From Diplonema papillatum (lineage: Eukaryota; Euglenozoa; Diplonemea; Diplonemida; Diplonemidae): 64,000 bases of DNA. The notes beneath the pieces were generated by a model. It ran no database searches, had not been told where the DNA came from, and was given only the letters and a program-made list of their open reading frames with translations. The position numbers and the translations under genes are program-made. Where the stretch lies: positions 34,709-98,708 of the forward strand of contig JAPJBO010000856.1 of assembly GCA_030068145.1 (NCBI GenBank), given 5' to 3'. Within the stretch, counting starts at the first letter, position 1. Every line of letters begins with the position of its first letter. Below, piece after piece: positions 1 to 32,176 of this stretch.

Positions 1-3000
1 CGAGGCATCCGGAGGATGTGGAGGCGGGCTCTGTACGCGAGTGCGGCGGACTGCAGGGTGCCGCGGGCCCGGGCGCGCCGCAGGCGCGCGGCGGCCAACC
101 GGGCCCGGCAGCCCTGCGCCGCGGCCGCCAGCACGCGCTCCGCGACGATGCGGTGCAGCTGGTGCAGCTCCGCCTCGACGCAGAAGCTGTCCTCGGTCGC
201 CAGCAGCGGGCGCTCGTCGACGGGCGAACCGCGCAGGCCGGCCGCTGCGGCGGCGGTCTCCGGGGGGGTGCCCGCGTGACCCACTTCCGGCGTCGCCGAG
301 CCTGCCGCAGCGGTACCCTCCGTAGTGTCCGCACGGGCCGCTCCCGGCATTCCGGAGTCCGTGCCTGCTCCAGCTGCAGGTGCATTGTTCTCCGTAGTAG
401 TATCCACATGGCCCGCTCCCTGCGTTTCCGAGCCCAGGCCAGCCGCTGCAGTTGCACTCTCCGTAGTGTCCGCACGGGCCGCTCCCGGCTTTCCGGAGTC
501 CGTGCCTGCTCCACCTGCAGGTGCATTGTTCTCCGTAGTAGTATCCACATGGCACGCTCCCTGCGTTTCCGAGCCCAGGCCAGCCGCTGCAGTTGCATTC
601 TGCGTTGTGTCTGCACGGGCCGCTCCCGGCTTTCCGGAGTCCGTGCCTGCTCCAGCTGCAGGTACATTGTTCTTCTCCATAGTGCTGTCCACACGGCCCG
701 CTCCCGGCGGTGCAGAGTCTCGGGTTGCCGTGTGTTCGGCTTGTGGGCCCGCCTGCGGCTGTTGGCTCCCCAACGTCTCCGCGGGCGGGGTTTCCCCCTC
801 GGGGGCCACTTCCACAGACGACACCCGGCTCACCCCGGCTATCGTGCCGAAGCTGGGCGCGTCGGTATGTGGCCTCGCCTGCAGCTGCTTGTTCCCAGGC
901 CAAACTGCGGATGAGACCGCCTCTTCGGGTGTCACTTCCACCGACACCACCCGGCGTACGCCTGCAATCGCGCCGATCCCGTGCGCCGCGTGGTATGGCC
1001 TCACCCGAGGTTCGACGGCGGGGGCCGGCTTCTGCTCGGGCGCTCCGCTGGCCCCGAAAAGGCTGGTTCCAGCTTTTTCGGGCTTCTCGGCGGCGCCGTG
1101 CGTCTCCTCCTGGTGTGGGTGCCCCGAAAAAGCTCCGCCGGCCCCGAAAAGGCTGGCTCCAGCTTTTTCGGGCTTCGCGGCGGCGCCGTGCGTCTCCTCC
1201 CGGTGCGGCCGACGGCCGTGCCCCGAAGGATCTCCCGCGGAGCCCGCGGCCTTCTGCTTCTCGGTCGCCCCGCTTTCGGCGGCCGCCTCCCACGCGCCGA
1301 AGCCGCTGCCGCCGCCCAACGACCCCCTGCGGCCGGCGTCGGACTCCGCGTGCGGCGAGAGCGAGTTGCCGGCCGCCGCCGGCCCCGCCGCAGGCGGGGG
1401 CGGCGGGTTGTCGAGGAGCCCGCGCTTGGCCGAGCTCTTCCGCGACGACTGCTCCGGCGAGTCGCCGGTCTCGCACACGACGATGGTCAGCGGGCGGCGG
1501 CGCCCGGCACGCGGGTCGAGCGAGAAGTCCGTCAGCGCCGCGGCCACGTCGATGATCGCCTCCGCGGGCGATTTTATGACGGACACGCTGTTCACCAGCC
1601 CGGCGTCCTCGTCGGTCGCCTCGTCCCCGTACGACGGCTCGCGGTCAACGGTCAACAGCCGCGAAGCCGAATCCGGAGTGCGCAGCAGCGAGTTTTTATG
1701 GCTGAACGACCCTGCCCAGGAGGTTGCCCGCGCAACGTGGAAGTCGGGTTGGGTGACGGTGATGGTGTGCTCCATCGTGTCGTGCAGGTTGCGCACCGCC
1801 GTCCGGGCGGCGTACCCCGCGAAGCAGCGGGAGACGGTGCCGGCGGCTGCGAGCGACCGCAGCGAGCACAGCCGCCGGCGCGCCGCGAAGCCGGCGCCGA
1901 CCACGTGGAGCTCTGCCGCGGCCCGCCGCCGCCGGGCCAGCAACACCCGGGCTGCGTGCGCAGCCCCGCACGCCCGAAGCACCGCCCGCGCGGCGTGCGC
2001 CTTCGCGAGGTCCCGCCGTGCCGCCCAGCCGGCGCACGCCGCAGCGAGCGTCCTGCCGCAGGCCGCGCTCCGCGCGGCGGCCGCGTGCGCGCCGGCCGCA
2101 GCGCGGCCGTTCCATGCGGGGCGACTCGCCCGACGGACTGCCAGGGGGCGCTGGTTGGCGATCGACTCCGGCTTCGGCGTGTCGACCAGCCGGTCCGATC
2201 CGGCGTCCGACAGCTTCGACTCCGACGATCGGTGGCTCGACAGCGGCGGCGTGGGGGGCGTTTGCACTGCGTTCGACGAGCGAGGGAAGGCCAGAATATT
2301 CGCGGCGGTCTCAGCTTGCGCTGCCTCCGCCCTTTTGCCCTCGTTTTCTCCTTTTGCGGCTGCCGTCGGCGCTGCGTTCGATGAGCGAGGGAAGTCATGA
2401 ATATTTGCGGCGGCCTCAGCCTGCGCGGCCTCCGACGACGACTCCTTGCCCTGGGAGTCCGAAGCAAGGCCAGCTTCCTCGGTCGGAGGCAGTGGATCTC
2501 CACTCTTGCAGGCAGACTGGGAGCCTTGCCGGGCTCCGTCCTCCGAGGTGCTGGGTAACACGCGACCTGAATCGCCTGCTGGCACCGCATGCTGCGCCGG
2601 CGCGTGGCCGTGTGCGGGATCACCGACGGCGTCCCACGACGAGTCCTTGCCCCACCGGGGGTCCGAAGCGAGGCCGGCGTCGGCGGAAGCCGAGGTGGCC
2701 TCTTCCGTTGCGGCTTGGGAGGTCGTGTTGACGCTGCCCGCTTGCTCCCGCGCCTCGTGCGGCTGGCGGGCGGCCGGCGCTGCTTCCGCCGTCGACGCAC
2801 GGCTTCCGCTGCGGACGCTGTCGGCCCGTTGCCGCGCCGCTGGTGCTTCGGAGTTGAGGCAGCCGTTCGGTGCCGTGTTCGCGGACGAGGAGGCCGAGCC
2901 GCGCCGCGGCGGGCCGCCGCCGGCAGGACCGGTCGACGACTTTCGGGCCTGCGGGGCTGCTTCGGCGCTGTTGGATGGGAGGCGAGCGGCGGCAACCGGT

Positions 3001-4808
3001 GCGTTCGCGTCTTTGGACGATGCTGATGAGTTGCACCGCTGGGGAGCACCTGCAGAGCCGGAGGATGACTTTCGGGACACAGGGACACCTTCGGCGCTGG
3101 TGGACGGAACGCGAGCGGCAGCAACAGGTGGTGCATTCGCGTCTTTAGACGATGCTGAGTTGCCCCGCAGAAGAGCACCTGCAGAACCCGAGGATGACTT
3201 TCGGGACATAGGGGCGCTGGTGGATGCAACGCGGGCGGCAGCAACAGGTGTATTCGCGTCTTTAGACGATGCTGAGTTGCGCCGCGGGAGGGCACTCGCA
3301 GAACCCGAGGATGACTTTCGGGACACAGGGGCTCCTTTGGCGCTGGTGGATGGAACGCGGGCGGCAGCAACAGGTGTATTCGCGCCTTTGGACGACACTG
3401 CTGAGTTGCGCCGCCCCGCAGAGCCCGAGGATGACTTTCGGGACACAGGGGCTCCTTCGGCGCTGGTGGACGGAACGCGAGCGGCAGCAACAGGTGTATT
3501 CGCGTCTTTAGACGATGCTGAGTTGCGCCGCAGAAGAGCACCTGCAGAGCCTGAGGATGACTTTCGGGACACAGGGGCTCCTTCGGCGCTGTTGGATGGA
3601 ACGCGAGCGGCAGCAACAGGTGTATTCGCGCCTTTAGACGACACTACTGAGTCACGCCGCAGAAGGGCGCCTGCAGGACCGGAGGATGACTTTCGGGACA
3701 CAGGGGCTCCTTCGGCGCTGTTGGATGGAACGCGAGCGGCAGCAACAGGTGTATTCGCGCCTTTAGACGACACTACTGAGTCACGCCGCAGAAGGGCGCC
3801 TGCAGGACCGGAGGATGACTTTCGGGACACAGGGGCTCCTTCGGCGCTGTTGGATGGAACGCGAGCGGCAGCAACAGGTGTATTCGCGCCTTTAGACGAC
3901 ACTACTGAGTTGCGCCGCAGAAGGGCACCTGCAGGACCGGAGGATGACTTTCGGGACACAGGGGCTCCTTCGGCGCTATTGGATGGAACGCGAGCGGCAG
4001 CAACAGGTGTATTCGCGCCTTTAGACGACACTACTGAATCACGCCGCAGAAGGGCGCCTGCAGGACCGGAGGATGACTTTCGGGCTTCTTCGGCGCTGCT
4101 GGATGCGGCAACAACAGGTGGCTTCGCATCTTTCGACGACACTGAGTCGCGCCGCAGAAGGGCACCTGCAGAACCCGAAGATGACTTTCCGGCCGCAGGG
4201 GCACCTTCGGCGCTGCTGGATGGGGCGCGAGAATGGGACGGATCCGCGGGGTTTTCAGCCACCGCGCCGCCCTCGGGGAGCACCGTTTCGGGGCTGGCGG
4301 CCTCTGCCTCCGACTCGGATCGCACGACGCCGGGGAAGCTGGGGATGCGCGGGATTTGCGGCGGGTGGTGGCCGTGAGGCTCCGGCGGAGCCGATGCTGT
4401 GCCTTCCTCCGAACAGCTTTCGACCCGGCGGATCTCGACGGAGCCGGCGCTAGAGCGGCGGCGGTGGAGGAGCGACTTGGCCGCGGCCGGCGCCTGCGCG
4501 CCGGCGCCGAGCAAAAAGCTGCTTTTCCGCGGGTTCGACAGGCCCGACACCCGCCGGACCACCGGCTCGGCGCCTTCGGCGGCCGCGGGCTCCCGGTCGG
4601 TCTCTCCGTCGGCGGAAGACCCGGTTGAATCGTCGAGCTTCGCCTCCGTGTCCGTAGAGTCGTCGGCGATCTCGAACGTCAGCGATTCATCGTCGTCACC
4701 ATCCCCGCCGTTCTCCGCGTTCCCCGCGGCCCCTTCGCTCTCACCGGATCCCGTCGAGTCCAGGAAGAACAGCGGCAGACTCTCCCTGCTGTCATCGTCC
4801 TCCGTCAT
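1..4808 (-). CDS. Giant low-complexity, tandem-repeat protein; N-terminal ~1,600 residues, C-terminus outside the window
   Basis: The minus-strand frame is open from an ATG at 4808 to the left edge. I do not recognise a family. Residues 1-60 are acidic (starts MTEDDDSRESLPLFF). About 60-195 is a Ser/Arg/Pro linker. About 195-625 holds eleven ~43-residue repeats containing RKSSS and LLRRDSV or LLRRNSV. About 885-1035 is Ala/Arg-rich and probably helical. About 1035-1160 looks more globular (HTITVTQPDFHVARA). Then come 30-residue x2, ~40-residue x2 and 47-residue x3 repeats, and a helical stretch (ELHQLHRIVAERVL) running off the edge. Repeat units in the 43-residue block differ in length only by multiples of three bases, so the block is under coding constraint. 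Composition, GC-rich third positions and the duplicated 5' end favour this strand over the long open plus-strand frames. RRxS-hydrophobic matches the known PKA-type consensus; phosphorylation is inference. Introns cannot be excluded. Confidence 0.75.
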   Translation of the reverse strand, partial: MTEDDDSRESLPLFFLDSTGSGESEGAAGNAENGGDGDDDESLTFEIADDSTDTEAKLDDSTGSSADGETDREPAAAEGAEPVVRRVSGLSNPRKSSFLLGAGAQAPAAAKSLLHRRRSSAGSVEIRRVESCSEEGTASAPPEPHGHHPPQIPRIPSFPGVVRSESEAEAASPETVLPEGGAVAENPADPSHSRAPSSSAEGAPAAGKSSSGSAGALLRRDSVSSKDAKPPVVAASSSAEEARKSSSGPAGALLRRDSVVSSKGANTPVAAARVPSNSAEGAPVSRKSSSGPAGALLRRNSVVSSKGANTPVAAARVPSNSAEGAPVSRKSSSGPAGALLRRDSVVSSKGANTPVAAARVPSNSAEGAPVSRKSSSGPAGALLRRDSVVSSKGANTPVAAARVPSNSAEGAPVSRKSSSGSAGALLRRNSASSKDANTPVAAARVPSTSAEGAPVSRKSSSGSAGRRNSAVSSKGANTPVAAARVPSTSAKGAPVSRKSSSGSASALPRRNSASSKDANTPVAAARVASTSAPMSRKSSSGSAGALLRGNSASSKDANAPPVAAARVPSTSAEGVPVSRKSSSGSAGAPQRCNSSASSKDANAPVAAARLPSNSAEAAPQARKSSTGPAGGGPPRRGSASSSANTAPNGCLNSEAPAARQRADSVRSGSRASTAEAAPAARQPHEAREQAGSVNTTSQAATEEATSASADAGLASDPRWGKDSSWDAVGDPAHGHAPAQHAVPAGDSGRVLPSTSEDGARQGSQSACKSGDPLPPTEEAGLASDSQGKESSSEAAQAEAAANIHDFPRSSNAAPTAAAKGENEGKRAEAAQAETAANILAFPRSSNAVQTPPTPPLSSHRSSESKLSDAGSDRLVDTPKPESIANQRPLAVRRASRPAWNGRAAAGAHAAAARSAACGRTLAAACAGWAARRDLAKAHAARAVLRACGAAHAARVLLARRRRAAAELHVVGAGFAARRRLCSLRSLAAAGTVSRCFAGYAARTAVRNLHDTMEHTITVTQPDFHVARATSWAGSFSHKNSLLRTPDSASRLLTVDREPSYGDEATDEDAGLVNSVSVIKSPAEAIIDVAAALTDFSLDPRAGRRRPLTIVVCETGDSPEQSSRKSSAKRGLLDNPPPPPAAGPAAAGNSLSPHAESDAGRRGSLGGGSGFGAWEAAAESGATEKQKAAGSAGDPSGHGRRPHREETHGAAAKPEKAGASLFGAGGAFSGHPHQEETHGAAEKPEKAGTSLFGASGAPEQKPAPAVEPRVRPYHAAHGIGAIAGVRRVVSVEVTPEEAVSSAVWPGNKQLQARPHTDAPSFGTIAGVSRVSSVEVAPEGETPPAETLGSQQPQAGPQAEHTATRDSAPPGAGRVDSTMEKNNVPAAGAGTDSGKPGAARADTTQNATAAAGLGSETQGACHVDTTTENNAPAGGAGTDSGKPGAARADTTESATAAAGLGSETQGAGHVDTTTENNAPAAGAGTDSGMPGAARADTTEGTAAAGSATPEVGHAGTPPETAAAAAGLRGSPVDERPLLATEDSFCVEAELHQLHRIVAERVLAAAAQGCRARLAAARLRRARARGTLQSAALAYRARLHILRMP
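320..745 (-). repeat. 141-bp in-frame tandem repeat (3 copies)
   Basis: The plus-strand string CCGTAGTGTCCGCACGGGCC recurs at 320, 461 and, diverged, about 602, a period of 141 bp or 47 codons. On the coding (minus) strand each unit reads roughly NNAPAAGAGTDSG followed by GAARADTTE and an Ala-rich stretch. The third copy is more diverged. Confidence 0.85.
1050..1230 (-). repeat. 90-bp in-frame tandem repeat (2 copies)
   Basis: GCCCCGAAAAGGCTGG starts at 1051 and again at 1141, giving a 30-codon unit. The encoded unit on the minus strand contains EETHGAA, KPEKAG and SLFGA. A separate two-copy repeat of ~40 codons (IAGVRRVVSVEV / IAGVSRVSSVEV) lies just below, around 790-990. Confidence 0.8.
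2932..4225 (-). repeat. 43-residue tandem repeat block (11 units) with RKSSS and RRxSV motifs
   Basis: Unit anchors (plus GAGGATGACTTTCGGG or variants) lie at 2932, 3061, 3190, 3307, 3427, 3553, 3682, 3811, 3940, 4069 and 4177. Spacings are 129, 129, 117, 120, 126, 129, 129, 129, 129 and 108 bp, all divisible by three. Units between 3553 and 4069 are nearly identical and the outer units more diverged, which is typical of recent unequal crossing-over in the middle. Encoded consensus pieces are NSAEGAPVSRKSSSG and ALLRRDSVVSSKGA. Confidence 0.9.
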
Positions 4809-5707
4809 CCCCAGCGGCAGGACAGCCCGGGGGGTCGGCGCGCACCGTCCGGGCGGGGCGCTACCCTGCTTCCTCGCCGGCTGCTCGGAATATTTAGCGT
4901 GTTTTCCGTTTCTTTTTTTTGGTGTTTGTCCAATCCGACAGCAAGCGCGTGTCAGACGAGCCCGCCCGAAGGCAGTTGTGGTTTTCTTCAGGCGGGTCTT
5001 CTCTGCCGGCGGAAGTTGTTTGGGCCAGATCTCTTTTGTGGTTCCGACGATTCCGAAAGGGCGTACAGATTGTGTCTTTCGACTTTTTTGTCAACGTTTT
5101 CTTTATTTTTTCCCCTCTGTCTTTGTTTTTTTTTTTCCCCTGCAGAAGGATGTCGGATTGGAGCTATTGCGACTTGCGATACCGAAAATAGAACCTCGTG
5201 TGAGAACAAGACCACAAAGAGAGCCTCGTCGTCGTCGTCACCATCCCCGCCGTTCTCCGCGTTCCCCGCGGCCCCTTCGCTCTCACCGGATCCCGTCGAG
5301 TCCAGGAAGAACAGCGGCAGACTCTCCCTGCTGTCGTCGTCCTCCGTCATCCCCAGCGGGAGGGCGGCCCGGGGGGGTCGGCGCGCACCGTCCGGGCGGG
5401 GCGCTCCCCTGCTTCCTCGCCGGCTGCTCGGAATATTTCGCGTGTTTTCCGTTTCTTTTTTTTGGTGTTTGTCCGATCCGACGACAGCAAGCGCGTGTCA
5501 GACTAGCCCACCCGAAGGCAGTTGTGGTTTTCTTCAGGCGGGTCTTCTCTGCCGGCGGAAGTTGTTTGGGCCAGATCTCTTTTGTGGTTCCGACGATTCC
5601 GAATGGGCGTACAGATTGTGTCTTTCAACTTTTTTGCCAACGTCTTCTTTATTTTTCCCCCTCTGTCTCTTTTTTTTTTTTTTTTTTTTTTTTTCCCTGC
5701 AGAAGAA
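4690..5707. repeat. Tandem duplication of the giant gene's 5' end and upstream region
   Basis: About 4690-5150 and about 5232-5707 are closely similar, offset by 542 bp. The two arms share the first ~38 codons of the minus-strand gene, its ATG, and about 340 bp upstream of it ending in a T-rich tract and CCCTGCAGAAG. About 80 bp of unrelated sequence separates them. Both arms carry long T runs of different lengths near their right ends. If the ATG at 4808 is the true start, the promoter lies within the duplicated segment. Confidence 0.85.
4988..5350 (-). pseudogene. Truncated duplicate of the giant gene's N-terminus
   Basis: The ORF starts with the same acidic N-terminus as the gene at 4808 (MTEDDDSRESLPLFF) and matches it for ~38 residues. 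It then leaves homology at the duplication border, enters unrelated sequence and stops after 120 codons. It has the same upstream region as the parent, so it could be transcribed, but most likely it is a by-product of the tandem duplication. Confidence 0.7.
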
Positions 5708-6480
5708 CAGGGGTCTTTAAAAGTTTGGGGGTTGGAGCGGAAAACCCGGTGTCAGCCAAAAACCCGGTGTGAGGTCAAATTTTTTTTTTCCAACACTTGG
5801 GCAGCAGCAGGGGACTTTAGCTCTTTGTCTGACGAGCAAAAAAGCCGGTTTCAGCCAAAAACCCGGTTTTGGGGCTCTGCGGTGCCTGTGGGTGTCTGAG
5901 TGCCTGGAACCGTCGCCCCGCGCACGTAAACAAAGGGACGGAGGGGGGTGGTGAGATAAGCTTGCGGTGGTGGTGGTGTGCACGTCTATCAAACTACGGA
6001 GTGGTAAGTGAAAAGCTTCGAATTGCAGTGACACACCGTGACGCGCCATGTATCTGCAGTCACTGTACAGTACAGTACAGTACAGGGGCCACTTGAAATC
6101 ATAATTTATAAATTATTTTTATTTTTTTGAAAAACCGAAACCGGAAAAACCCGGTTCCTGAAACCGGGAAACCGGGTTTCCAAAGTCCCCTGGGCAGCAG
6201 GGATGCCTTGGGACGAAAATCCCTACGCTCTAAACCGGGGTTTTGGGGAATCACACGGCATTCAGCGGTGACCCTACTGTAGCCCCGACCCGCACAGTAG
6301 GCTGTGTTGACGCTTCGGGTGGGGGGAGACCTGCCCGCGCAGCGATATTTTTTGTGGTAGTGAGCCTCCTTTTGGCTTCTGCATGCGTGTGCCGCCTCTG
6401 GTGCACGATTGAACCAGCGTTAAACTCCGGAACACCGATCCAGCAACTCTTCTTATGGCGGTTTTGTGTTTCTTAAGGAG
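5708..6480. other. Non-coding spacer rich in AACCCGG/CCGGGTTT hairpins
   Basis: No convincing gene. Short AAAACCCGGT-type strings recur on both strands (about 5740-5870 and 6125-6250), and around 6130-6180 they can fold on each other. An ACAGT repeat (TACAGTACAGTACAGTACAG) lies near 6065. The phrase 'AAGTCCCCTG' recurs here (about 6184), at 13027 and, as GTCCCCTG-like text, in other repeats, suggesting a shared repeat family. Confidence 0.5.
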
Positions 6481-6800
6481 CCCTGCGCCGCAGGCGCGGA
6501 AACTTTTAAACGGTCGCACTTACGGATCAAAGCAGATGGGCACTAGGGTGGCTCGTCACAACTAGGTTGGCTGACATGTCAATTAAACCTGCGCCGCAGG
6601 CGCGGAAATTTTGACGGTCGCACTTACAGTTAAACAGATGGACGGAAACACGTTGGTTTGTCCCCGGCTGCAGCAGGTTTTCGTCCTGCACAACGCCCCT
6701 GCATTGCCTGCCACGGTGGAACACTGTGAACAGAATGAGCAAATAATGCGGTAGCCCCATGACGGAAAACACCTGCGCCGCAGGCGCGGAAAACTTTTGG
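6480..6800. repeat. Three GCGCC-GCA-GGCGC hairpin repeats
   Basis: CCTGCGCCGCAGGCGCGGAAA-like strings occur at about 6484, 6589 and 6772. Each has the perfect stem GCGCC/GGCGC with a 3-nt loop, followed by GGAAA(A)nTTTT. Related GCGCCGAAGGCGCG strings occur at about 13507 and 17886. Sequence between the copies is not conserved. Confidence 0.7.
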
Positions 6801-6849
6801 CGCCTTTCTGGCCAGCCAGCTAAGTACGAAGATCGCAAAACAGTTTTCC

Positions 6850-7355
6850 GTGAAAGAAATTTCCGCCGGTGGTTTCTGCTATGAGAAGATTTTTTCCATC
6901 AGGTTTCTGCCACGAGAAATTTCCACCGATGGGTTCCGTTCGAAAACATTTCCACCAACAATTTCTGTTAGAAAAGTTTTCCGCCAAGCTTCCCGTGAAA
7001 GAAATTTCCGCCGGTGGTTTCTGCCATGCGAAAATTTCCATCAGTTTTCTGTCGTGAGAAAATTTCCACCACCAGTTTCCCACGAAAGAAATTTCCGCCA
7101 GTAGTTTTCACGAGAACATTTCCATCATCGGTTTCCGCCACGACAAAATTTCCATCAGTTTTCTGTCGTGAGAAAAATTTCCACCAACAGTCGTTTCCAC
7201 GAGAACATTTCCATCAGGTTTCCGCCACGAGAGAAATTTCCGCCAGATTTCCGCCACGAGAAAATTCCCATCATTTTTCTGTCGCAGAGAAAATTTCCAC
7301 CAACAGTATTCCACAAAGGAAATTTCCGCCAGTAGTTTCCACGAGAAAATTTCCA
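6850..7355. repeat. Degenerate ~29-bp tandem array, left part
   Basis: About 18 units containing (G)GAAATTTCC or GAGAAAATTTCC followed by RYCAG and TTTC. Anchors recur every 26-31 bp between 6943 and 7343. The core GGAAATTTCC is a perfect palindrome. The same array resumes at 12795, so the intervening 5.4 kb is an insertion. Confidence 0.85.
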
Positions 7356-10300
7356 ACGTTATTTGTGGATTAGAAGGTCGGTATTTTAAAGTCTCCGGTT
7401 GACCGTAGAAAGAGTGCGACTCGTTTCGGGTGTTGTGTCACTCCGTTGTGAAACCTTGTGAAGTCCCCTAACGCGTTTAGAGGGTGCTTGGGTTTGGGTA
7501 GGGTGTGGTCGTTCTGCTGCGGCGTGAAAAGCCAGGAAGTTTCGACGCTAATCTTCGACTCTTGATTAAGTTCACCGGGTTGCGTGCTCGTCAGGAAGAT
7601 CCCGGTGCCTGGCTTTTCTTCTGGGTGGTTTCGTGTTGATCGGCGGCTGTGTGTTACGAGGCACGGATTAGGGGATGAAAAAAGGAAAAAGAAATGGGGG
7701 AGAAAAAGAAGGGGGGGAGAGGGGGAGAGGGGAAGTTGGGGTTTTGAGGGTTGTCCTCGGGGTACGGGGGGGGGTGGTTGGAGGGTTTGAGTGACAGAGG
7801 TTACGCTTGCGCTGTTCGCATGAAGGCTCGTTGGCTCGAAGAAGTGGAAGTAGCGTAGGTTATTGTTCGATGTTATTCTTACAGTCGTAAGATGTGATAA
7901 AAAAATTTATTTTAAAAAAACCTTATTTGACTGTTTGTTGTCCTCCACAGTCGGGGTTCTCTAGCTGCACGAGGCAGCCGTGGATGATGAAATTAAGTTC
8001 CTCGCTTACTTTGCTTATTCTTTTTCGTAGCCTTGAGCGTGTGCGATACCGCTGGGTTTCTCTTGCATTTTGAGATATGGTGGCGTAGACTTTTGAAGCG
8101 CGCTTTCCCTGCGGTCCGTCCGTCGTTGTTGCAGTATGGGCATTTGCGTTTTCCGAGGGCTTTCTGTGCCGCCTTTCGTACTGGGCTTGTTGCTAGAGTC
8201 ATCTCTTTGCAGTGAAGCATGTGTGTACGGAGGCCTTTGGCGCCTTTGAACTTGTTGCCTGCGTCCGTGGTAGTTGCTTTGCAGGCTGGGCATGCCCAAA
8301 TCAGCGTTCCTTCATGCTGTGTTGTTTCTTCGGATGAGGTCTCGTCGTCTGAGGTAGGGGTGTCCCCTCGCAATTCTTCGAGCAGTTCGAGTGTTTGTGT
8401 AGGGTCTGTGTCGGTGGTGTCTTCTTTCGTGTACAGGAACATGTACGTGGCGTTGTCTGTGTACGTAGGTTCCCGGGAGTGTGAGGTGGTTTCGTTGTTG
8501 TAATGTGTCCAGTTTTGGTCTGTGAAAGGGGTGCGGTTACGTTTGTGGATGGTGTAGTGGCCGGCGTTCTCTCTTCCTGTGTGTGTTATAACGGCTTGGA
8601 GTTCGTATTTGTGTTCGTGGTCCGGAATGTTGAGGGTGGGATCAGCTGCCACCGGGGTTCGATTTTCGTTTGCGAACTCGTTCCGTCTAAGACACAGTAG
8701 TAATGTGTCTTGTGCTGCTCGGATACTGGTTTGCGTTTCTGCTGTCTTTGTCTTTTTGCACTTGTCACATCTGTAATCTTTGGGGGTGCTTTTCTTGCAG
8801 AAACTGTCCAGACATCCTTGAGCGGTGCTGGCCTGTATTGCGAGGATTGTCATGCTGTAGGGTTGATCTTCTGTTTTGATGTAGCCGCAGTTGTTGCAAT
8901 GGATTGTTGTCGTCTGTAGGTGTAATAATTCGTTGAAGGCGTCGCTGCAGTTTGGTTGGCACGTGCGGTGTTCTTCGTTTTCGTTCGCTATCGCAGCGAG
9001 TAGTTGAAGTAAGGCTTCTTCTAGGTCGTGTTGTTCTCCGTCGCCGAGGTGTGTGTCCATGTGCTCGAAGAGCCTTTGGACGACGTTTTGGGTTTTCCTG
9101 CCGCTTATCCATTCGTTCACGTCTTGTGTGCATGGGCCTGTTTGGTGTTGTGGACAGTCGGTGTACTTGCGTATTTGATTTGACAAGTGTGTCGCTGCTA
9201 TGAGGTTTAGCGACGCTTGCAGGAAGCAAGAGTTTCTTGTCGTGTATTTGCGAAGTTGCTGTGGGTGTTTCCGCTTCGTTTTGGCTGCTACTGCTGCGGC
9301 GATGGTGATGGTTGCAACGAGGCTGGCTACTCGTTCCGTGACGGTTAATTCGGGTGTGGGTTGTGATGGAGAGTCAACGGAGGATGGTGATTCGCTCGGT
9401 AAGTGGGCTGGGAAGAAGTTGGTTGGCCTGTGTTTGCCGGCGTACTCCGGTTCGTTGATGCGTGGTTGGCGTTTTTTGTGCCGGGCTACGCAGAATCCAA
9501 GGAACGGCTTGAGCTGGCTGTGGAGTCGTGGCAGGTTGCCGAATTCCTCTGTGAGCCATGCGTTCCAGGGTGCGTATAGTACCCGTGGGTTGTGACCTCT
9601 GTCGATCATGGCATATACGCTCCTCTGTATTTCTACACGCAGGTCTTGTAGGTGGTTCGTTTGTCGGATTGCTCGTATCAGCGAGCCCTTGAAAATCCCG
9701 CTCGCTTGCGCCTTGGGAGCCGTTGTTAAATGGTGGGTATAGCGGGTCCCGTAGTTTTTCGGTTGTATTGTGAGGCGGATGTGCGGTGCGTGGGGAGGAT
9801 CCGGACGTTCGACGCGTATCCGGACTCCGAGAAATACTACGTCGTCGTGTGCTGTAGTTGTGTTTTTGTACCGCATGTTGTAAAGGTGCTGCGGTGGTGG
9901 TGTGGTCCCGAAGTTGAGGAAGTCGTCGATGAAGCGGTAGGTGTGTGCGTGTGCCTTCGCTTCTTCGATCTTTCCTTCATCTACGAGGCTGTCTACGTAT
10001 GCTTTCTCGATCCGATAGCAGAAAAGGTTTGCTATATCCGAGCTAGCATTACCGCCCATAGGTATGCCGTCGGTCTGCCTGAGTACTTGATCGCCTTGTG
10101 CTATGTAGCTGTTACCGATAATGATTGCAAGTAGTTCTTTGACTGCTTCTCTGGAGTATGCGCGCTTCGTGTCGTTCGTCTGCCGGCTGAAGGTGAAGGT
10201 TTTCTTGCCTTTCTGTTTCGCTCCACGTGTTAGGTTAGGGTTGCCGTTCTGTTCTTCGAATTCGAAAGCTTCTTCGATCGCTTCGCATACTTCTTCCACT

Positions 10301-12794
10301 ATCTTGTCCTGAGGTAGCCTTGTGTACATGTCCTCGAAGTCGTGTGTAGTTGGGATTTTGTATCGGAGGCGGGTGAGGTTCTGCTTTATGTGCAGGGTGA
10401 TGTCGTCTGGTCCTTCTGTAAACCATACACGTTTGATTCCTGTACGGCGGAAGTTGAGTTCGTCTTTTCGTTTGAGGGCTTTCATCACGCTTTTCAATAG
10501 GCCTGATAGTTCGAGGTGGGCATTTGTGAGGGTTGCTTTGGGTGCCTCGCGTTTTGTGTTGCGGTGCTTTTTGTTTTTTTCTGCGGCGACACCGGCTATC
10601 CAACGGAAAGATGGTTCTGCTTTGTGTAATTTTATGGAGCCGTAGAGGTGTGGTAGTCCCTTGTGGAACGGTAGGTCGAGCTCTGCCATTATACGTTTGT
10701 GGTTGCTCTCTACTTCTGTTTTTGTGATCGTTTGTTTCTCGTATGTTTCGTTTGCGTCGAGTTGTTGCCGTAGCGCGTGTGTGTATTGGGCTTTGCAACA
10801 GTATCCAAAATCGTGCGTTGTTTTGTCTACTGGTAAGATGACCAGGTGTTGTTTAATGACAGCTAGTTCGGCTGTGGCCTTTGTATTCAATTTCTCGTCG
10901 TCTGAAGGTGGTAGAGCCGCCATTCTTCGTGATATTTCGGCTTTGAGCTCCGTTTCGAATGAGGTTGTGTCACTGCCTGCGGGGTAGTATGTCTGTACGT
11001 ACTCCTCTATTGCCTCGTGTAGCGTTTCGGTCAGAGCGTGGTGGCTCTGGTAGCATCTGTACTTTCTGCCTCTGCTGACGATTTCCGAAAGCCCGTTTTC
11101 TTTCGTAATTGCTGAGAGGAAGCCTATGGCGTGGCCGTTGATCGTTTTTCCGGAGTTGTATCTGTGACATGCGCAGTGCTCTGGTTTAGGGAGTGGTATG
11201 TCAGGCAGTTCCTTGCTGATCTGTGTTACGTTTTGTAGCCTAAGATAGAGTGGGGGGTTCAGTCGGAAAGAGATTTTGGTGCGCTGTAGTATCTCTTCTT
11301 TTGGGCAAGCGCGTTTAATCGCCGGTTGTTGTAGGATGTCGTGTAAACGTAGTGAGTTGATGTGTTCACTGCCGTGTGTGATTATGAGCCTTGCTGGTGC
11401 TCCGTCGTCTTTTATTACTTTGTTGAGTGTTATCTCCCCGAGTCGATCTTTTAGGCTTTTTTCGAGTGCTGTGACGGTAGGTGGCAAATTGGTGCGAGGT
11501 GCGTGTGCGATTAGCCAGTTAAGAAGCCGCTTGATCCGTGTGCGTCCCATAAGGTCGAAGTTGTAGCCGGTGAGGTCTTTGTCGCTGAGGTTTACCAGGT
11601 GGTGTAGTTGGCTCCTGATTGAGAATGCTCGTGCTTCGGTAGTGAGGTTGATCCGCAGTTTTCCGTCTTCCAACCATGCCCACTTTTCGACTTTTGGTGC
11701 GTTTTTCGTTCGTTCGTGGCGTTGATTGGAACGTTTTCTGCTTTTCCTGGGGCGTGTAGTGGCGTTTCTGATATGTCGTTGGACGTTGTATGTGGGTTGG
11801 AAGTGTGAAATCCACCAGTTCTCTCTCGGAAGTGCCTGTCTCCGGAATTCGTCGTTTGTGGCGTGCTCGTTGATTGGAACTTTCTCGAGCGGTGTCGCGT
11901 AGAGGGGAAAGTCCCGTTTCAGAAGAGCTTTGGCGATGGGTGTGTTGTTGCGGCGTTGATACCAGTGGGATTTCAGACGATCCTCAGCGGTACCTTTGGT
12001 TTGCCCGACGTATTTGACGTTTCCGCGTTCGTCTATAAGGGCGTAGACTACTCCTTGGTCGGAGTGTGCTGGTTTGTCGGTCTGCTGGTTCTTCCATCCC
12101 TTGTGTAGCTGCTTGTGTTGTTTGGTGAAGAACACGACCTGCGCTTCTCGTCGTTTGGTGTCATACGCGGCCCAGAACTGTTTCCCGTAATTGTATTTCG
12201 CTTTAGTGCGAAAGCATGTGAGGAACGGGTTTCGCTTAAATTCTGGACGGTCTGCTTCTTTTGGGTCGATGGCGTTCTGTTTGAGCTTGTACTTCAAGTG
12301 TGTGTCGTTGAGGTGGGTGACTGGTCGGGGGTTCTCTTGTGTTGGTGTGCTGTGTTGTGTGGTCCGTACGTCTTGTGGTGGTTTGAATGTGAGGTTTTGG
12401 TGTAGTTTGTTCGGTTGTGATGTATAAGGTTGGTGTGAAGGGAGTACGAGTGTATTCAGTGTTGGTGGTGGATGTCGGAGACCGTATTGTGTGGGTGGGA
12501 GTAGGAATGTCGTAGTGGGTCGTGTGTTAGTTAGTTTCGGAGGTGTGTGGAGGGTTGGGGGAGGTATAGTTCGGAGTGTGATGGTCGGCACTGCTGGAGG
12601 GAGTGCGGATTGTTGTGGGTAGCGTCGATGGATGTCGGGTGTTGGGTAGTCGATGTGTGGTTGGTGTCGTGGCTTGTACGTTTCGTTGAGGATGGAGGTG
12701 GGACGTCTCATCGTGGCAGGGGTGGGAGACCCGTAGTACGGCATGTGTGGCCGTGGGATGTTTGGGATGCGTTCGGTGTATGAGACGTCTTTCC
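7352..12794 (-). mobile_element. Penelope-like retroelement with N-terminal GIY-YIG and a USP domain
   Basis: The borders are set by the split 29-bp array: left part ends at ~7355, right part resumes at ~12795. The element carries one long minus-strand ORF (7993-12744) and ~640 bp of 3' non-coding sequence (7352-7992) with purine-rich stretches near 7680-7750. Its 3' terminus on the minus strand (7352-7540) recurs without the ORF at 25066-25290. Upstream of the first ATG the frame stays open through the junction, leaving only ~50 bp of 5' sequence, so the copy may be 5'-truncated. N-terminal GIY-YIG is the arrangement known from the Naiad/Chlamys type of Penelope-like elements; assignment to that clade is inference. 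I saw no obvious target-site duplication or hammerhead core at the ends. Confidence 0.8.
7993..12744 (-). CDS. GIY-YIG nuclease / reverse transcriptase / USP deubiquitinase / zinc-finger fusion protein (Penelope-like)
   Basis: 1,583 residues with no internal stop. 1-150 is Pro/Thr-rich. GIY-YIG spans ~229-325: GVVYAL at 231-236, YVG at 245-247, RLKSHW, then RENWWISHFQPTYN with the expected Glu and Asn. The reverse transcriptase starts ~698 (LYGSIKLHK), with DFEDMYTRLP ~801, GIPMGGNASS ~891, YRFIDDF 936-942 (catalytic IDD) and VFLGVRI ~970. A USP-type deubiquitinase fold spans ~1165-1425: Cys box NSCFLQAS with C1173, two CxxC pairs (~1284 and ~1327) as in the USP zinc ribbon, and His box THTGRENAGHYTIH with H1396 followed by WTHYNNE. 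Two C-terminal zinc fingers begin CPAC (~1484) and CPYC (~1534). All catalytic residues I can check are present, suggesting recent activity. The USP could counter ubiquitination of the protein or its partners; that role is inference. Confidence 0.88.
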   Translation of the reverse strand: MPYYGSPTPATMRRPTSILNETYKPRHQPHIDYPTPDIHRRYPQQSALPPAVPTITLRTIPPPTLHTPPKLTNTRPTTTFLLPPTQYGLRHPPPTLNTLVLPSHQPYTSQPNKLHQNLTFKPPQDVRTTQHSTPTQENPRPVTHLNDTHLKYKLKQNAIDPKEADRPEFKRNPFLTCFRTKAKYNYGKQFWAAYDTKRREAQVVFFTKQHKQLHKGWKNQQTDKPAHSDQGVVYALIDERGNVKYVGQTKGTAEDRLKSHWYQRRNNTPIAKALLKRDFPLYATPLEKVPINEHATNDEFRRQALPRENWWISHFQPTYNVQRHIRNATTRPRKSRKRSNQRHERTKNAPKVEKWAWLEDGKLRINLTTEARAFSIRSQLHHLVNLSDKDLTGYNFDLMGRTRIKRLLNWLIAHAPRTNLPPTVTALEKSLKDRLGEITLNKVIKDDGAPARLIITHGSEHINSLRLHDILQQPAIKRACPKEEILQRTKISFRLNPPLYLRLQNVTQISKELPDIPLPKPEHCACHRYNSGKTINGHAIGFLSAITKENGLSEIVSRGRKYRCYQSHHALTETLHEAIEEYVQTYYPAGSDTTSFETELKAEISRRMAALPPSDDEKLNTKATAELAVIKQHLVILPVDKTTHDFGYCCKAQYTHALRQQLDANETYEKQTITKTEVESNHKRIMAELDLPFHKGLPHLYGSIKLHKAEPSFRWIAGVAAEKNKKHRNTKREAPKATLTNAHLELSGLLKSVMKALKRKDELNFRRTGIKRVWFTEGPDDITLHIKQNLTRLRYKIPTTHDFEDMYTRLPQDKIVEEVCEAIEEAFEFEEQNGNPNLTRGAKQKGKKTFTFSRQTNDTKRAYSREAVKELLAIIIGNSYIAQGDQVLRQTDGIPMGGNASSDIANLFCYRIEKAYVDSLVDEGKIEEAKAHAHTYRFIDDFLNFGTTPPPQHLYNMRYKNTTTAHDDVVFLGVRIRVERPDPPHAPHIRLTIQPKNYGTRYTHHLTTAPKAQASGIFKGSLIRAIRQTNHLQDLRVEIQRSVYAMIDRGHNPRVLYAPWNAWLTEEFGNLPRLHSQLKPFLGFCVARHKKRQPRINEPEYAGKHRPTNFFPAHLPSESPSSVDSPSQPTPELTVTERVASLVATITIAAAVAAKTKRKHPQQLRKYTTRNSCFLQASLNLIAATHLSNQIRKYTDCPQHQTGPCTQDVNEWISGRKTQNVVQRLFEHMDTHLGDGEQHDLEEALLQLLAAIANENEEHRTCQPNCSDAFNELLHLQTTTIHCNNCGYIKTEDQPYSMTILAIQASTAQGCLDSFCKKSTPKDYRCDKCKKTKTAETQTSIRAAQDTLLLCLRRNEFANENRTPVAADPTLNIPDHEHKYELQAVITHTGRENAGHYTIHKRNRTPFTDQNWTHYNNETTSHSREPTYTDNATYMFLYTKEDTTDTDPTQTLELLEELRGDTPTSDDETSSEETTQHEGTLIWACPACKATTTDAGNKFKGAKGLRTHMLHCKEMTLATSPVRKAAQKALGKRKCPYCNNDGRTAGKARFKSLRHHISKCKRNPAVSHTLKATKKNKQSKRGT

Positions 12795-12900
12795 AAAATT
12801 TCCATCAGTTTTCTGTCGTGAGAAATTTTTCCACCACCAGTTTCCCTTCCCACGAAAGAAATTTCCGCCGGTAGTTTCCATGAGAAAATTTCCAGCCTAC
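12795..12900. repeat. Degenerate ~29-bp array, right part beyond the retroelement
   Basis: AAAATTTCCATCAGTTTTCT at 12796 matches the left array (about 7148). Three or four more units follow, up to about 12895, before unrelated A/T-rich sequence. Confidence 0.8.
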
Positions 12901-13029
12901 ACAGTGACAAAACAGAAATCTGGAGAAAAAAAAAATCCCAGCAATTTTCTGACTTTTTTTTGTTTTCCTCTTTTTTTGACACACCGGGGTTTCCCGGTGT
13001 CTGACACCGGGACACCGGGTTTTTAAAGT

Positions 13030-13848
13030 CCCCTGCAGAAGAATCAGGGTATTAGTTTGAAGGCTTCCGGGGTTTGCAGATTTAGACCGTTACTATGGGG
13101 TGGTTTTGGGCGGTGTTTCGGTGCCGTTTTCGCCGATGTACACGGTCTTTTCGGGGGTTTCCGAATGTTTCTGGGTTCCCTGTAGGGTTGAGTGCCATAT
13201 GGGGACGCGCTCCACAAACAGTCAAAATCATAAACAGACAGTCTCGTCAGGCAGCTGAAGGGGGTGGACCTGGGGACCTATTTTCCTATGATTCCTATGA
13301 CAATAGGTCCACGGTTTTGGTGTGCACCGCCGTGCTTACAACAATATTTTTAGCGTTTATTGTGGTTTAGAGGTTCGGTGTTTTAGGGTCTCCGGTTGAC
13401 GATTGAGGCTGTGAGGCGGGTGGTATGAGGGTAGTAGGTATGCTTATACACTTTAACTACGGCTAGCCATGTTTGTAAGTGTTGCGTGTAAGTATTTTTA
13501 GCAACATCGCGCCGAAGGCGCGGCGGAAAATTTGGGCAAAAATAACTCCGCCCCCCTTTATCATGTGTGGGCAACTCTTAGCTCGTGTGGGATACTCAAC
13601 TGTCAAACAGGACCTTGGCCCGGTAATGAAGCACAGTGGCAGCTGCAACCTGCCGAACTGGGTCTCAGCAGGGGAGGCTCAGCAGCCTTCCAGCACCTTC
13701 GGCACACTGCTACAAACACCACACCCCCCTCTAGATTTACTTTGAACACCGTTTTTTGAACTTTTTTTTTTTTCCGGCCAAGTCCGGTTTGCAGATTTAG
13801 ACCGTCGGTATAAATCTGCAACGGAAACTAATCCCCTGGAAGAATGTC
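13030..13848 (+). repeat. ~820-bp dispersed repeat, copy A
   Basis: Shares long stretches with 17425-18274: GGGTATTAGTTTGAAGGCTT, TTTAGACCGTTACTATGGGG, a CAATAGGTCCACGGTTTTGG segment, the GCGCCGAAGGCGCG hairpin, and a closing CTGCAACGGAAACTAATCCC. Copy A carries a ~145-bp block at about 13345-13493 that copy B lacks. No coding potential. It may be a non-autonomous element. Confidence 0.75.
13345..13493 (-). mobile_element. Short oriented repeat (Penelope-3'-like family) inserted in the 820-bp repeat
   Basis: The block GTTTATTGTGGTTTAGAGG...TAAGTGTTGCG is bounded on both sides by TATTTTTAGC in copy A. Copy B has a single TTATTTTTAGCAAC at the matching place. The same ~135-bp unit recurs at 54313-54452. 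Read on the minus strand its 3' end is ...CGCTAAAAA, like the other members of this family. Confidence 0.55.
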
Positions 13849-13929
13849 GGATTGGAGCTCTTCGAAAATCTACAATCTAAGGGGTGTTCACCATGTTTTC
13901 CTATTCGGGCTGAGAACCTTCTTAGCCCG

Positions 13930-14045
13930 TGACAATCAGGGCACTGGGCAGAAGGCGCATTCCACTCGCCACCGCTGTGATGAAGCGAAATGCTGTGGTT
14001 TAAATAACCAGTTGGATCCTCGTTGCTCGTAACAATTCCAAGCTG
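13930..14045. repeat. ~115-bp dispersed repeat
   Basis: About 90% identical by eye to 30785-30893 (GGGCAGAAGGCGCATTCCAC; TGATGAAGCGAAATG; AACCAGTTGGAT). At 30.8 kb this unit lies inside a segment that is absent from a neighbouring copy, suggesting it belongs to a mobile element. Confidence 0.7.
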
Positions 14046-17424: not shown

Positions 17425-18274
17425 GGGTATTAGTTTGAAGGCTTCCGGGGTTTGCAGATTTAGACCGTTACTATGGGGTGGTTTTGGGCGATGTTTCGGT
17501 GCCGTTTTCGCCGATGTACGGCGGTGCCGACACATCTCCACAACTTCGTTCGGCAAAAGAGGGGTCTTCATGGGTCCTTTATAGGTCAATTATGGTCACC
17601 CCGTCGGTTTGGCGACACATTTTGCGGGCGTTTTTTCAACGTACACCAGCCTGGATCAAGCTTTTCGAGGTTTTCCGAATGCTTCTGGGTTCCCTGTGGG
17701 GTTGGGTGCCAAATGGGGACGCGCTTCAAAAACAGTCAAAATCGTAAACAGACGTCTCGTCAGGCAGCTGAAGGGGGGCGACCTGGGGACCTATTTTCCT
17801 ATGATTCCTATGATAATAGGTCCACGGTTTTGGTGTACACCGCCGTGCTTACAACAACATTTCTAGCGTTATTTTTAGCAACATCGCGCCGAAGGCGCGA
17901 CGGCAAATTTGGGCAAAAATAACTCCGCCCCCCCTTTATCATGTGTGGGCAACTCTTAGCTCGTGTGGGATACTCAACTGTCAAACAGGACCTTGGCCCG
18001 GTAATGAAGCACAGTGGCTGCCGACCCGAAGCTGAACACAATTGAACGGCAGCGGCTGGGTCTCAGCAGCGGAGGCTCAGCAGCCTTCCAGCACCTTCAG
18101 CACACTGCTAAAACACCACACCCCCCGCCTATATTTACTTTGACCACCGTTTTCTAGAGTTATAGTTCGCTTGAGAATCCTTTTTGAACTTTTTTTTTTT
18201 TTTTTTTTTCCCGGCCAAGTCCGGTTTGCAGATTTAGACCGTCGGTCTAAATCTGCAACGGAAACTAATCCCCT
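17425..18274 (+). repeat. ~820-bp dispersed repeat, copy B
   Basis: Counterpart of 13030-13848. It has an extra ~110 bp near 17520-17640 and lacks the ~145-bp block seen in copy A. It ends with CTAATCCCCTGG directly against the 52-bp satellite, whose first unit begins GGCTCGGAG. Confidence 0.75.
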
Positions 18275-21200
18275 GGCTCGGAGTCATGACTTGAGGTGCG
18301 CAAAAGACCCCCCTGTATTATCCTATGGCTCGGAGTCATGACTTGAGCTGCGCAAAAGAACCCCCTGTATTATCCTATGGCTCGGAGTCATGACTTGAGG
18401 TGCGCAAAAGACCCCCCTGTATTATCCTATGGCTCGGAGTCATGACTTGAGGTGCGCAAAAGACCCCCCTGTATTATCCTATGGCTCGGAGTCATGACTT
18501 GAGGTGCGCAAAAGACCCCCCTGTATTATCCTATGGCTCGGAGTCATGACTTGAGGTGCGCAAAAGACCCCCCTGTATTATCCTATGGCTCGGAGTCATG
18601 ACTTGAGGTGCGCAAAAGACCCCCCTGTATTATCCTATGGCTCGGAGTCATGACTTGAGGTGCGCAAAAGACCCCCCTGTATTATCCTATGGCTCGGAGT
18701 CATGACTTGAGGTGCGCAAAAGACCCCCCTGTATTATCCTATGGCTCGGAGTCATGACTTGAGGTGCGCAAAAGACCCCCCTGTATTATCCTATGGCTCG
18801 GAGTCATGACTTGAGGTGCGCAAAAGACCCCCTGTATTATCCTATGGCTCGGAGTCATGACTTGAGGTGCGCAAAAGACCCCCCTGTATTATCCTATGGC
18901 TCGGAGTCATGACTTGAGGTGCGCAAAAGACCCCCCTGTATTATCCTATGGCTCGGAGTCATGACTTGAGGTGCGCAAAAGACCCCCCTGTATTATCCTA
19001 TGGCTCGGAGTCATGACTTGAGGTGCGCAAAAGACCCCCCTGTATTATCCTATGGCTCGGAGTCATGACTTGAGGTGCGCAAAAGACCCCCCTGTATTAT
19101 CCTATGGCTCGGAGTCATGACTTGAGGTGCGCAAAAGACCCCCCTGTATTATCCTATGGCTCGGAGTCATGACTTGAGGTGCGCAAAAGACCCCCCTGTA
19201 TTATCCTATGGCTCGGAGTCATGACTTGAGGTGCGCAAAAGACCCCCCTGTATTATCCTATGGCTCGGAGTCATGACTTGAGGTGCGCAAAAGACCCCCC
19301 TGTATTATCCTATGGCTCGGAGTCATGACTTGAGGTGCGCAAAAGACCCCCCTGTATTATCCTATGGCTCGGAGTCATGACTTGAGGTGCGCAAAAGACC
19401 CCCCTGTATTATCCTATGGCTCGGAGTCATGACTTGAGGTGCGCAAAAGACCCCCCTGTATTATCCTATGGCTCGGAGTCATGACTTGAGGTGCGCAAAA
19501 GACCCCCCTGTATTATCCTATGGCTCGGAGTCATGACTTGAGGTGCGCAAAAGACCCCCCTGTATTATCCTATGGCTCGGAGTCATGACTTGAGGTGCGC
19601 AAAAGACCCCCCTGTATTATCCTATGGCTCGGAGTCATGACTTGAGGTGCGCAAAAGACCCCCCTGTATTATCCTATGGCTCGGAGTCATGACTTGAGGT
19701 GCGCAAAAGACCCCCCTGTATTATCCTATGGCTCGGAGTCATGACTTGAGGTGCGCAAAAGACCCCCCTGTATTATCCTATGGCTCGGAGTCATGACTTG
19801 AGGTGCGCAAAAGACCCCCCTGTATTATCCTATGGCTCGGAGTCATGACTTGAGGTGCGCAAAAGACCCCCCTGTATTATCCTATGGCTCGGAGTCATGA
19901 CTTGAGGTGCGCAAAAGACCCCCCTGTATTATCCTATGGCTCGGAGTCATGACTTGAGGTGCGCAAAAGACCCCCCTGTATTATCCTATGGCTCGGAGTC
20001 ATGACTTGAGGTGCGCAAAAGACCCCCCTGTATTATCCTATGGCTCGGAGTCATGACTTGAGGTGCGCAAAAGACCCCCCTGTATTATCCTATGGCTCGG
20101 AGTCATGACTTGAGGTGCGCAAAAGACCCCCCTGTATTATCCTATGGCTCGGAGTCATGACTTGAGGTGCGCAAAAGACCCCCCTGTATTATCCTATGGC
20201 TCGGAGTCATGACTTGAGGTGCGCAAAAGACCCCCCTGTATTATCCTATGGCTCGGAGTCATGACTTGAGGTGCGCAAAAGACCCCCCTGTATTATCCTA
20301 TGGCTCGGAGTCATGACTTGAGGTGCGCAAAAGACCCCCCTGTATTATCCTATGGCTCGGAGTCATGACTTGAGGTGCGCAAAAGACCCCCCTGTATTAT
20401 CCTATGGCTCGGAGTCATGACTTGAGGTGCGCAAAAGACCCCCCTGTATTATCCTATGGCTCGGAGTCATGACTTGAGGTGCGCAAAAGACCCCCCTGTA
20501 TTATCCTATGGCTCGGAGTCATGACTTGAGGTGCGCAAAAGACCCCCCTGTATTATCCTATGGCTCGGAGTCATGACTTGAGGTGCGCAAAAGACCCCCC
20601 TGTATTATCCTATGGCTCGGAGTCATGACTTGAGGTGCGCAAAAGACCCCCCTGTATTATCCTATGGCTCGGAGTCATGACTTGAGGTGCGCAAAAGACC
20701 CCCCTGTATTATCCTATGGCTCGGAGTCATGACTTGAGGTGCGCAAAAGACCCCCCTGTATTATCCTATGGCTCGGAGTCATGACTTGAGGTGCGCAAAA
20801 GACCCCCCTGTATTATCCTATGGCTCGGAGTCATGACTTGAGGTGCGCAAAAGACCCCCCTGTATTATCCTATGGCTCGGAGTCATGACTTGAGGTGCGC
20901 AAAAGACCCCCCTGTATTATCCTATGGCTCGGAGTCATGACTTGAGGTGCGCAAAAGACCCCCCTGTATTATCCTATGGCTCGGAGTCATGACTTGAGGT
21001 GCGCAAAAGACCCCCCTGTATTATCCTATGGCTCGGAGTCATGACTTGAGGTGCGCAAAAGACCCCCCTGTATTATCCTATGGCTCGGAGTCATGACTTG
21101 AGGTGCGCAAAAGACCCCCCTGTATTATCCTATGGCTCGGAGTCATGACTTGAGGTGCGCAAAAGACCCCCCTGTATTATCCTATGGCTCGGAGTCATGA

Positions 21201-31580: not shown

Positions 31581-32176
<596 letters not shown>

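Follow-up and report, generated by a model that had tools for sequence, protein, structure and literature searches.

A GIY-YIG retroelement of Diplonema papillatum with a ubiquitin-specific protease domain, and related elements with other deubiquitinase-type tails

Background

Penelope-like elements carry a GIY-YIG endonuclease (EN) and a reverse transcriptase (RT) in a single open reading frame (PMC11167929, available text). According to the accessible part of Bao et al. 2010 (PMC2836005), Ginger1 DNA transposons bear a C-terminal OTU or Ulp1 domain, OTU domains occur in Helitrons, and a Trichomonas protein joins transposase_11 to peptidase C19, while NeSL and Utopia non-long-terminal-repeat (non-LTR) retrotransposons are described with an N-terminal Ulp1-like protease (PMC4640811, available text). 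The present analysis concerns a window of 64,000 nucleotides of DNA from Diplonema papillatum, to which all coordinates refer, and a retroelement within it, designated F1, whose protein joins a GIY-YIG EN and an RT to a ubiquitin-specific protease (USP) domain and zinc fingers. Residue numbers are those of its 1,583-amino-acid (aa) frame in the window.

Diplonema papillatum is a marine single-celled flagellate. Penelope-like elements with an N-terminal EN, Naiad and Chlamys, were reportedly described by Craig et al. 2021; to our knowledge, the Chlamys EN lacks the CCHH motif and neither Naiad nor Chlamys has a hammerhead ribozyme. The available text of the paper on the ~280-Mb D. papillatum assembly lists LINE-1, SLACS, R2, jockey and other elements, and its main text nowhere contains the word Penelope (PMC10161547).

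Results

Domain organization of the window protein

An earlier note on this DNA had read GIY-YIG, RT, USP and zinc fingers as one in-frame protein, and this reading held: the frame was uninterrupted, UCH (the USP family profile) and GIY-YIG matched above their Pfam cut-offs (Table 1), and the residues that had been named (C1173, H1396, two CxxC pairs, IDD and two fingers) were all located in the sequence. The Pfam match to RVT_1 was weak (E=0.064, below cut-off), and the RT was shown instead by a profile of its own relatives, built partly from the window protein itself, at the E value given in Table 1. Among 20 aligned relatives, the G, P, M, G of the RT block GIPMG and the D, D of FIDD were invariant, and both I nearly so. 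A 20-sequence RT profile matched general RTs in the PDB (8bgj, E=3e-4; 6me0, 0.009) and not telomerase; a four-member RT profile returned nothing useful from the PDB, and the relative P0015 had no PDB match at E up to 0.1. The NCBIfam search of the F1 and P0001 proteins gave no matches. The order GIY-YIG, CxC, RT agreed with the earlier assignment to the N-terminal GIY-YIG type, the element being placed by its features rather than by named Naiad or Chlamys references. No Cys was present within aa 225-325, the endonuclease region.

The predicted catalytic Cys and His of the USP domain lay where previously claimed, Asn1416 fitted the third place of the triad, and two zinc-binding-type CxxC pairs were found (C1283/C1286 and C1326/C1329). 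The best solved matches of a profile of four USP families included USP36 (2.7e-20), USP12 (2.6e-15) and USP14. A loose zinc-finger pattern was matched by 165 and 166 of 1000 shuffles of the F1 and P0001 tails, respectively, and is not significant there on its own, so that support for these fingers comes from conserved alignment columns; in the tails of four Josephin-bearing relatives (P0015, P0029, P0030, P0032) it was matched by 5-14 of 1000 shuffles.

Table 1. Positions of the F1 copy, its parts and its flanks in the window (strand "." = none given)
Feature	Position	Strand	Basis
TTTCC-rich tandem repeat array adjoining the element 3' end	6893..7354	.	similar repeats visible at 12790-12890
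3'-side copy, candidate target-site duplication	7350..7356	.	read by eye
5'-truncated copy of the F1 retroelement	7357..12789	-	3' end within 3 bases of common terminus; 5' junction 45 nt upstream of ATG
3' untranslated part with fixed 3' terminus	7357..7992	-	terminus common to 19 of 20 fetched copies
Open frame, 1,583 aa, GIY-YIG - CxC - RT - USP - zinc finger	7993..12744	-	uninterrupted ATG to stop
Zinc finger 2, CxxC..H..C (aa 1535-1560)	8065..8142	-	absent from F2-F4
Zinc finger 1, CxxC-H-C (aa 1485-1512)	8209..8292	-	alignment columns common to families F2-F4
USP/UCH (peptidase C19) domain (aa 1169-1438)	8431..9240	-	Pfam UCH E=3.2e-14, 53.6 bits, cut-off 23.9
Predicted third triad residue Asn1416 (in WTHYNN)	8497..8499	-	position is Asp in 6/8, Asn in 2/8 (F1, P0011) USP sequences
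Predicted catalytic His1396 (in HTGRENAGHY)	8557..8559	-	alignment of USP sequences
Predicted catalytic Cys1173 (in RNSCF)	9226..9228	-	invariant in 7 aligned USP sequences
CxC region and reverse transcriptase (aa 488-1094)	9463..11283	-	own-relatives profile E=1.5e-192; RFIDD from aa 937, FIDD aa 938-941
CxC motif (aa 524-526), between EN and RT	11167..11175	-	sequence motif
GIY-YIG endonuclease domain (aa 231-320)	11785..12054	-	Pfam E=3.4e-6, 27.7 bits, cut-off 22.6
5'-side copy, candidate 7-bp target-site duplication TTGGAAA (element strand)	12790..12796	.	read by eye

Copies and ends of the F1 element

Copy counts were obtained from a genome of 271 Mb in 2,910 contigs and are lower bounds. 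A search with the F1 protein yielded 31 rows for the best 30 of 2,625 candidates scored, and 18 of these 30 places covered residues 1-1583 without a stop, which contradicts the chimeric assembly that the earlier note had named as a possible source of the fusion and rules out a single freak copy as well. The stop-to-stop frame was 2,210 codons long in 13 of the 18 intact places, the extra N-terminal part being of low complexity. Two copies with a common 5' start measured 8,681 and 8,707 bp (element of ~8.7 kb); in both, the frame stayed open for 627 further low-complexity codons upstream, with an ATG at -219, while an ATG at -510 was found in only one. The window frame, noted earlier as the element protein, is uninterrupted but belongs to a 5'-truncated copy, and its ATG at 12744 is no more than the first that this copy retains.

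The 3' untranslated region had at least 40 genomic matches at 94-100% (best 40 of 1,550 candidates), and the same 3' terminus was shared by 19 of 20 fetched copies, L023 diverging earlier. At the 5' side, seven of these 20 copies were truncated, two had the common start and 11 had their 5' end beyond the fetched stretch. Fixed 3' ends together with variable 5' truncation give a picture of target-primed reverse transcription (TPRT). Among the ten copies with both junctions, including that of the window, 5-bp flank repeats were seen in four (one offset by 1) and none of at least 5 bp in six, as counted without a shuffled control. The candidate duplication in the window may be fortuitous, because it lies inside a TTTCC-rich tandem repeat. 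No 5'/3' self-similarity (pseudo-LTR) was detected by blastn within one full-length copy. The Rfam search for hammerheads gave no match in window positions 6000-14000 at E up to 1, where a CRISPR-repeat match below threshold was all that appeared, and 0 hammerhead ribozyme matches in copies L009, L041 and L030 at the gathering threshold. Further F1-like 3'-end fragments were observed elsewhere in the window, at 25075-25280 and 45071-45098 (95-100%) and at 13360-13400 (85%).

USP-bearing families and selection

Several families of the same genome carried the USP. The protein P0001 (family F2), named 'putative ubiquitin carboxyl-terminal hydrolase 16 [Diplonema papillatum]', showed 27% identity over 86% of the window protein; its coding copy was found at 100% in the genome of the window, and the fetched copy translated identically. 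In the alignment, F1, F2, F3 and F4 all displayed the order EN-CxC-RT-USP-finger. Residues 1-1499 were spanned without a stop in 18 of 34 rows for F2, and residues 1-1498 in 6 of 34 rows for F3, a sister family 86% identical to F2. A deeper-branching family of the same genome (P0004/P0006) encoded RT-USP without a finger. Identity of F1 to F2-F4 was 23-24% from the USP to the C-terminus, and 22% to F2 over the USP domain. Since such divergent families of one genome keep the fusion, the EN-RT-USP arrangement is old.

The genome scan for UCH yielded 149 scored matches among 935 candidates. Judged by eye from score and length, 112 of them grouped with F2, F4 and close variants, and 37 resembled host USPs or partial matches. 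All 12 fetched of the 112 contained the element USP, with the RT inside the fetched stretch in just two. This suggests that transposon domains account for many of the USP matches in the Diplonema genome. In the variants L033, L035 and L036, the USP was kept while the C-terminal part read differently, with no finger in the open frame. The Diplonema entries P0001, P0006, P0008, P0009 and P0010 all contained the element RT but bear the names of ubiquitin hydrolases (16 and 26), dynein intermediate chain 2, STIP1-like and UNC93-like; they may be proteins of the element that were given host USP names, or models of host genes merged with copies of the element.

Ratios of nonsynonymous to synonymous substitution (dN/dS) were estimated by the Nei-Gojobori method with codon bootstrap (95% intervals in brackets). 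Only the pair F2-F3 was relied on, because synonymous sites are saturated in most pairs with F4 and F1 (dS mostly above 1). The ratio was 0.061 (0.040-0.087) for the RT, 0.111 (0.015-0.350) for the finger, 0.134 (0.047-0.351) for the EN and 0.221 (0.153-0.319) for the USP, against 0.294 (0.155-0.518) for the linker before the USP and 0.535 (0.291-1.001) for the linker after it. The USP was under purifying selection in F2-F3, and clearly less constrained than the RT. A decaying passenger USP is ruled out for this pair by dN/dS below 1. The USP segment, whose accidental presence the earlier note had considered, was thus found in other copies and in divergent families and under selection in one pair; as to elements lacking it, the related families of this genome among the matches listed had the USP, except the truncated or badly modelled P0003 and P0012.

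Relatives with Josephin, OTU or USP tails

The fusion proved broader than first noted, related elements carrying Josephin or OTU instead of USP. Two profile searches of 5.8 billion proteins returned at least 20 and at least 72 matches, respectively (about 8,000 candidates scored in each). RT and a Josephin domain above the Pfam cut-off were combined in P0013, P0015, P0029, P0030 and P0032, while the Josephin match of P0040 was below it (22.2 vs 26). P0014 was labelled Josephin through a profile of the Josephin tails of other elements (3.7e-6) and mainly by its Cys and His motifs; this label is uncertain because the tail profile is unspecific and also matched the USP tails of P0004 (6.8e-7), P0006 (1.5e-5) and P0001 (5.1e-5), though along stretches that were shorter or C-terminal. 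The N-terminal order GIY-YIG, CxC, RT was also found in P0003, P0030 and P0032, and the last two showed the full order GIY-YIG, CxC, RT, Josephin, finger, their GIY-YIG being recognized by motif and by Pfam matches below cut-off.

Proteins with RT and OTU (P0021, P0022 and P0023, OTU above cut-off) ended in a DnaJ domain with the HPD motif. These three represent a retroelement with both deubiquitinase-type and Hsp70 co-chaperone domains, and their J-domain would fit a theme of protein quality control (proteostasis). P0024, an RT-USP protein whose tag Rhum we take to stand for Rhynchopus humris, a diplonemid, has a transcriptome-type source name, and this relative is therefore probably transcribed. 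Catalytic Cys and His motifs were kept in every tail inspected, namely 8 USP, 7 Josephin-labelled and 3 OTU tails. As a side observation, the GIY-YIG and RT element protein P0031 is listed under a bacterial metagenome-assembled genome of the Terriglobales, possibly through eukaryotic contamination of the bin.

One RT lineage with three deubiquitinase families

An RT-only tree of 83 rows grouped all 19 rows labelled with a deubiquitinase (DUB; 9 USP, 7 Josephin and 3 OTU, with P0003 and P0014 labelled weakly) and 10 unlabelled rows, several of them short fragments, in a single clade (Shimodaira-Hasegawa-like approximate likelihood ratio test, SH-aLRT, 100). P0003, in which only USP fragments remain, was counted as USP because its RT is that of P0006. 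P0002, P0005, P0007-P0010 and P0012, which belong to the same families but have truncated or fused gene models, were left out, as were P0019 and P0020, which have no RT. All 54 rows outside the clade, i.e., relatives bearing no Penelope-like or telomerase name, ended 0-10 aa after the RT profile match. A smaller, careful tree of 35 rows, built with 8 of these 54 and without P0003 and P0016, supported the DUB-bearing clade at 100/99 and a USP clade at 100/98, the latter including the long-branched P0014 and the fragment P0041.

Constraining the Josephin rows to one clade was rejected by the approximately unbiased (AU) test (3e-56, and 3e-70 without P0014), six fragment rows being left free in the test and P0014 also in the second run. 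The DUB label has therefore changed several times, and deubiquitinases of three families were gained or swapped behind one RT lineage. An ancestral Josephin replaced by OTU and USP, or repeated gains, would both fit this tree.

Other features of the window

The first part of the window (1-6000) had a GC content of 60-72% vs 49-59% in the remainder, and contained 129/258-bp tandem repeats at 2923-4231 as well as long open frames that overlap on the two strands, of which one (1,602 aa) ran off the edge. At 18274-23637, a 52-bp unit was repeated ~103 times at 99% matches, forming a highly uniform satellite array, and a 592-bp (TG)n tract (297 copies, 99% matches) was observed at 31582-32173.

Discussion

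Possible roles of the deubiquitinase

We lean slightly towards a Penelope-like clade whose hallmark would be deubiquitination, with a C-terminal slot behind the RT filled by Josephin, OTU or USP, probably by replacement in place, and with ubiquitination then serving in these hosts as a general obstacle to TPRT, or a point at which it is controlled, that is countered in cis. Replacement in place appears probable because five of the seven Josephin-labelled proteins and four of the eight USP proteins have a C-terminal finger behind the DUB. The USP domain probably cleaves ubiquitin. Ubiquitin cleavage is shared by the USP, Josephin and OTU families, and the recurrence of three such families favours catalysis over scaffolding; together with the kept catalytic residues and the covalent link to RT and EN, it speaks for a catalytic job in cis. 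This link would keep the DUB with the RT and the endonuclease, where it could remove ubiquitin attached to the element's own protein or ribonucleoprotein (RNP), or to proteins met at the nicked target, so that the complex would escape degradation or eviction until reverse transcription was completed. We hold this scenario tentatively, at a little short of an even chance. Taken as a whole, the explanation of F1 as a Penelope-like retroelement of D. papillatum that was active recently, and perhaps still is, with a DUB working in cis seems to us evenly poised.

Several points weigh against this explanation. The sequence holds no pointer to the substrate. The USP evolves faster than the RT (dN/dS 0.22 vs 0.06) and is not clearly more constrained than the preceding linker, the intervals of the two overlapping, and the F1 USP has diverged so far (22% identity to F2) that activity could be lost in some families. 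Inside the clade, the EN-RT protein P0027 stops just 8 aa past the RT, P0034 and P0036 have finger-bearing tails with no recognized DUB, and P0025, P0026 and P0035 have tails of 74-204 aa, likewise with no recognized DUB; a DUB is thus common in the clade but not obligatory. Moreover, USP, Josephin and OTU are presumably all papain-like cysteine proteases, i.e., distinct families rather than wholly unrelated folds.

The main rival to protection of the element's own complex is that the tethered DUB works on proteins of chromatin or repair where the element inserts (e.g., ubiquitinated histones or repair factors), opening the target or steering repair. We regard this as unlikely, if worth weighing: the zinc fingers and GIY-YIG put the protein on DNA, USP36 and USP12 were the best solved matches, and the OTU and Ulp1 domains of Ginger have been proposed to act on DNA repair via ubiquitin or SUMO (Bao et al. 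2010, PMC2836005, available text), yet similarity to the nearest PDB chain says little about the substrate, and the Pfam scans of F1 and P0001 recognized no chromatin-binding module. A domain that binds ubiquitin and needs no catalysis, recruiting the element to ubiquitinated sites, would suit a USP dN/dS well above that of the RT, with part of the domain loosely constrained, but seems improbable, since each of the 18 DUB tails examined retains its catalytic Cys and His motifs.

Some viral papain-like proteases both process polyproteins and deubiquitinate, and the cysteine protease of one long protein with low-complexity linkers could likewise cut it into EN, RT and DUB parts; this is very unlikely, as no LxGG/RGG-type site, the only type searched, was found in 15 of 16 element proteins, and the site in P0022 lies inside the RT stretch. 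Host-sequence capture by retroelements is common, and the USP might accordingly be a passenger, or else an artefact of assembly or annotation. This can hardly be credited in view of the intact F1 places, the four families with the same order, the F2-F3 dN/dS below 1 and the relative in a transcriptome-type source, and three DUB families recurring behind one RT lineage make function likelier than a single chance fusion.

Comparison with known systems

With GIY-YIG and RT in a single frame, F1 conforms to the description of Penelope-like elements. It resembles Naiad and Chlamys in having N-terminal GIY-YIG, CxC and RT in one protein, resembles Chlamys in an EN without Cys and resembles both in giving no Rfam hammerhead match; unlike them, F1 adds a C-terminal deubiquitinase and zinc finger after the RT. 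Its USP shares catalytic boxes, two CxxC pairs and the UCH profile with cellular USPs (USP36, USP12, USP14), but is diverged and embedded in a retroelement protein. The literature search revealed, among the matches listed, no earlier description of USP, Josephin or OTU in a Penelope-like element or any other retroelement; Craig et al. 2021 lay outside that search, so that a mention there is possible.

Like the F1 lineage, Ginger1, the Helitrons and the Trichomonas protein show a C-terminal ubiquitin or SUMO protease that varies between families of mobile elements, including one C19 (USP) case, but these are DNA transposons that do not reverse-transcribe, and no Josephin is mentioned for them in the available text (PMC2836005). 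NeSL and Utopia likewise fuse a retrotransposon RT protein with a SUMO/ubiquitin-type cysteine protease; unlike that of F1, their protease is Ulp1-like and N-terminal, and they have a restriction-like endonuclease and a different RT class (PMC4640811, available text). Ubiquitin and SUMO proteases are thus already known in other transposons; here, ubiquitin signalling and retrotransposition are joined in one polypeptide. The speculation that such proteases help transposition, found in the accessible part of PMC2836005, can now be put to a direct test in an element with a single protein, by mutating one catalytic site.

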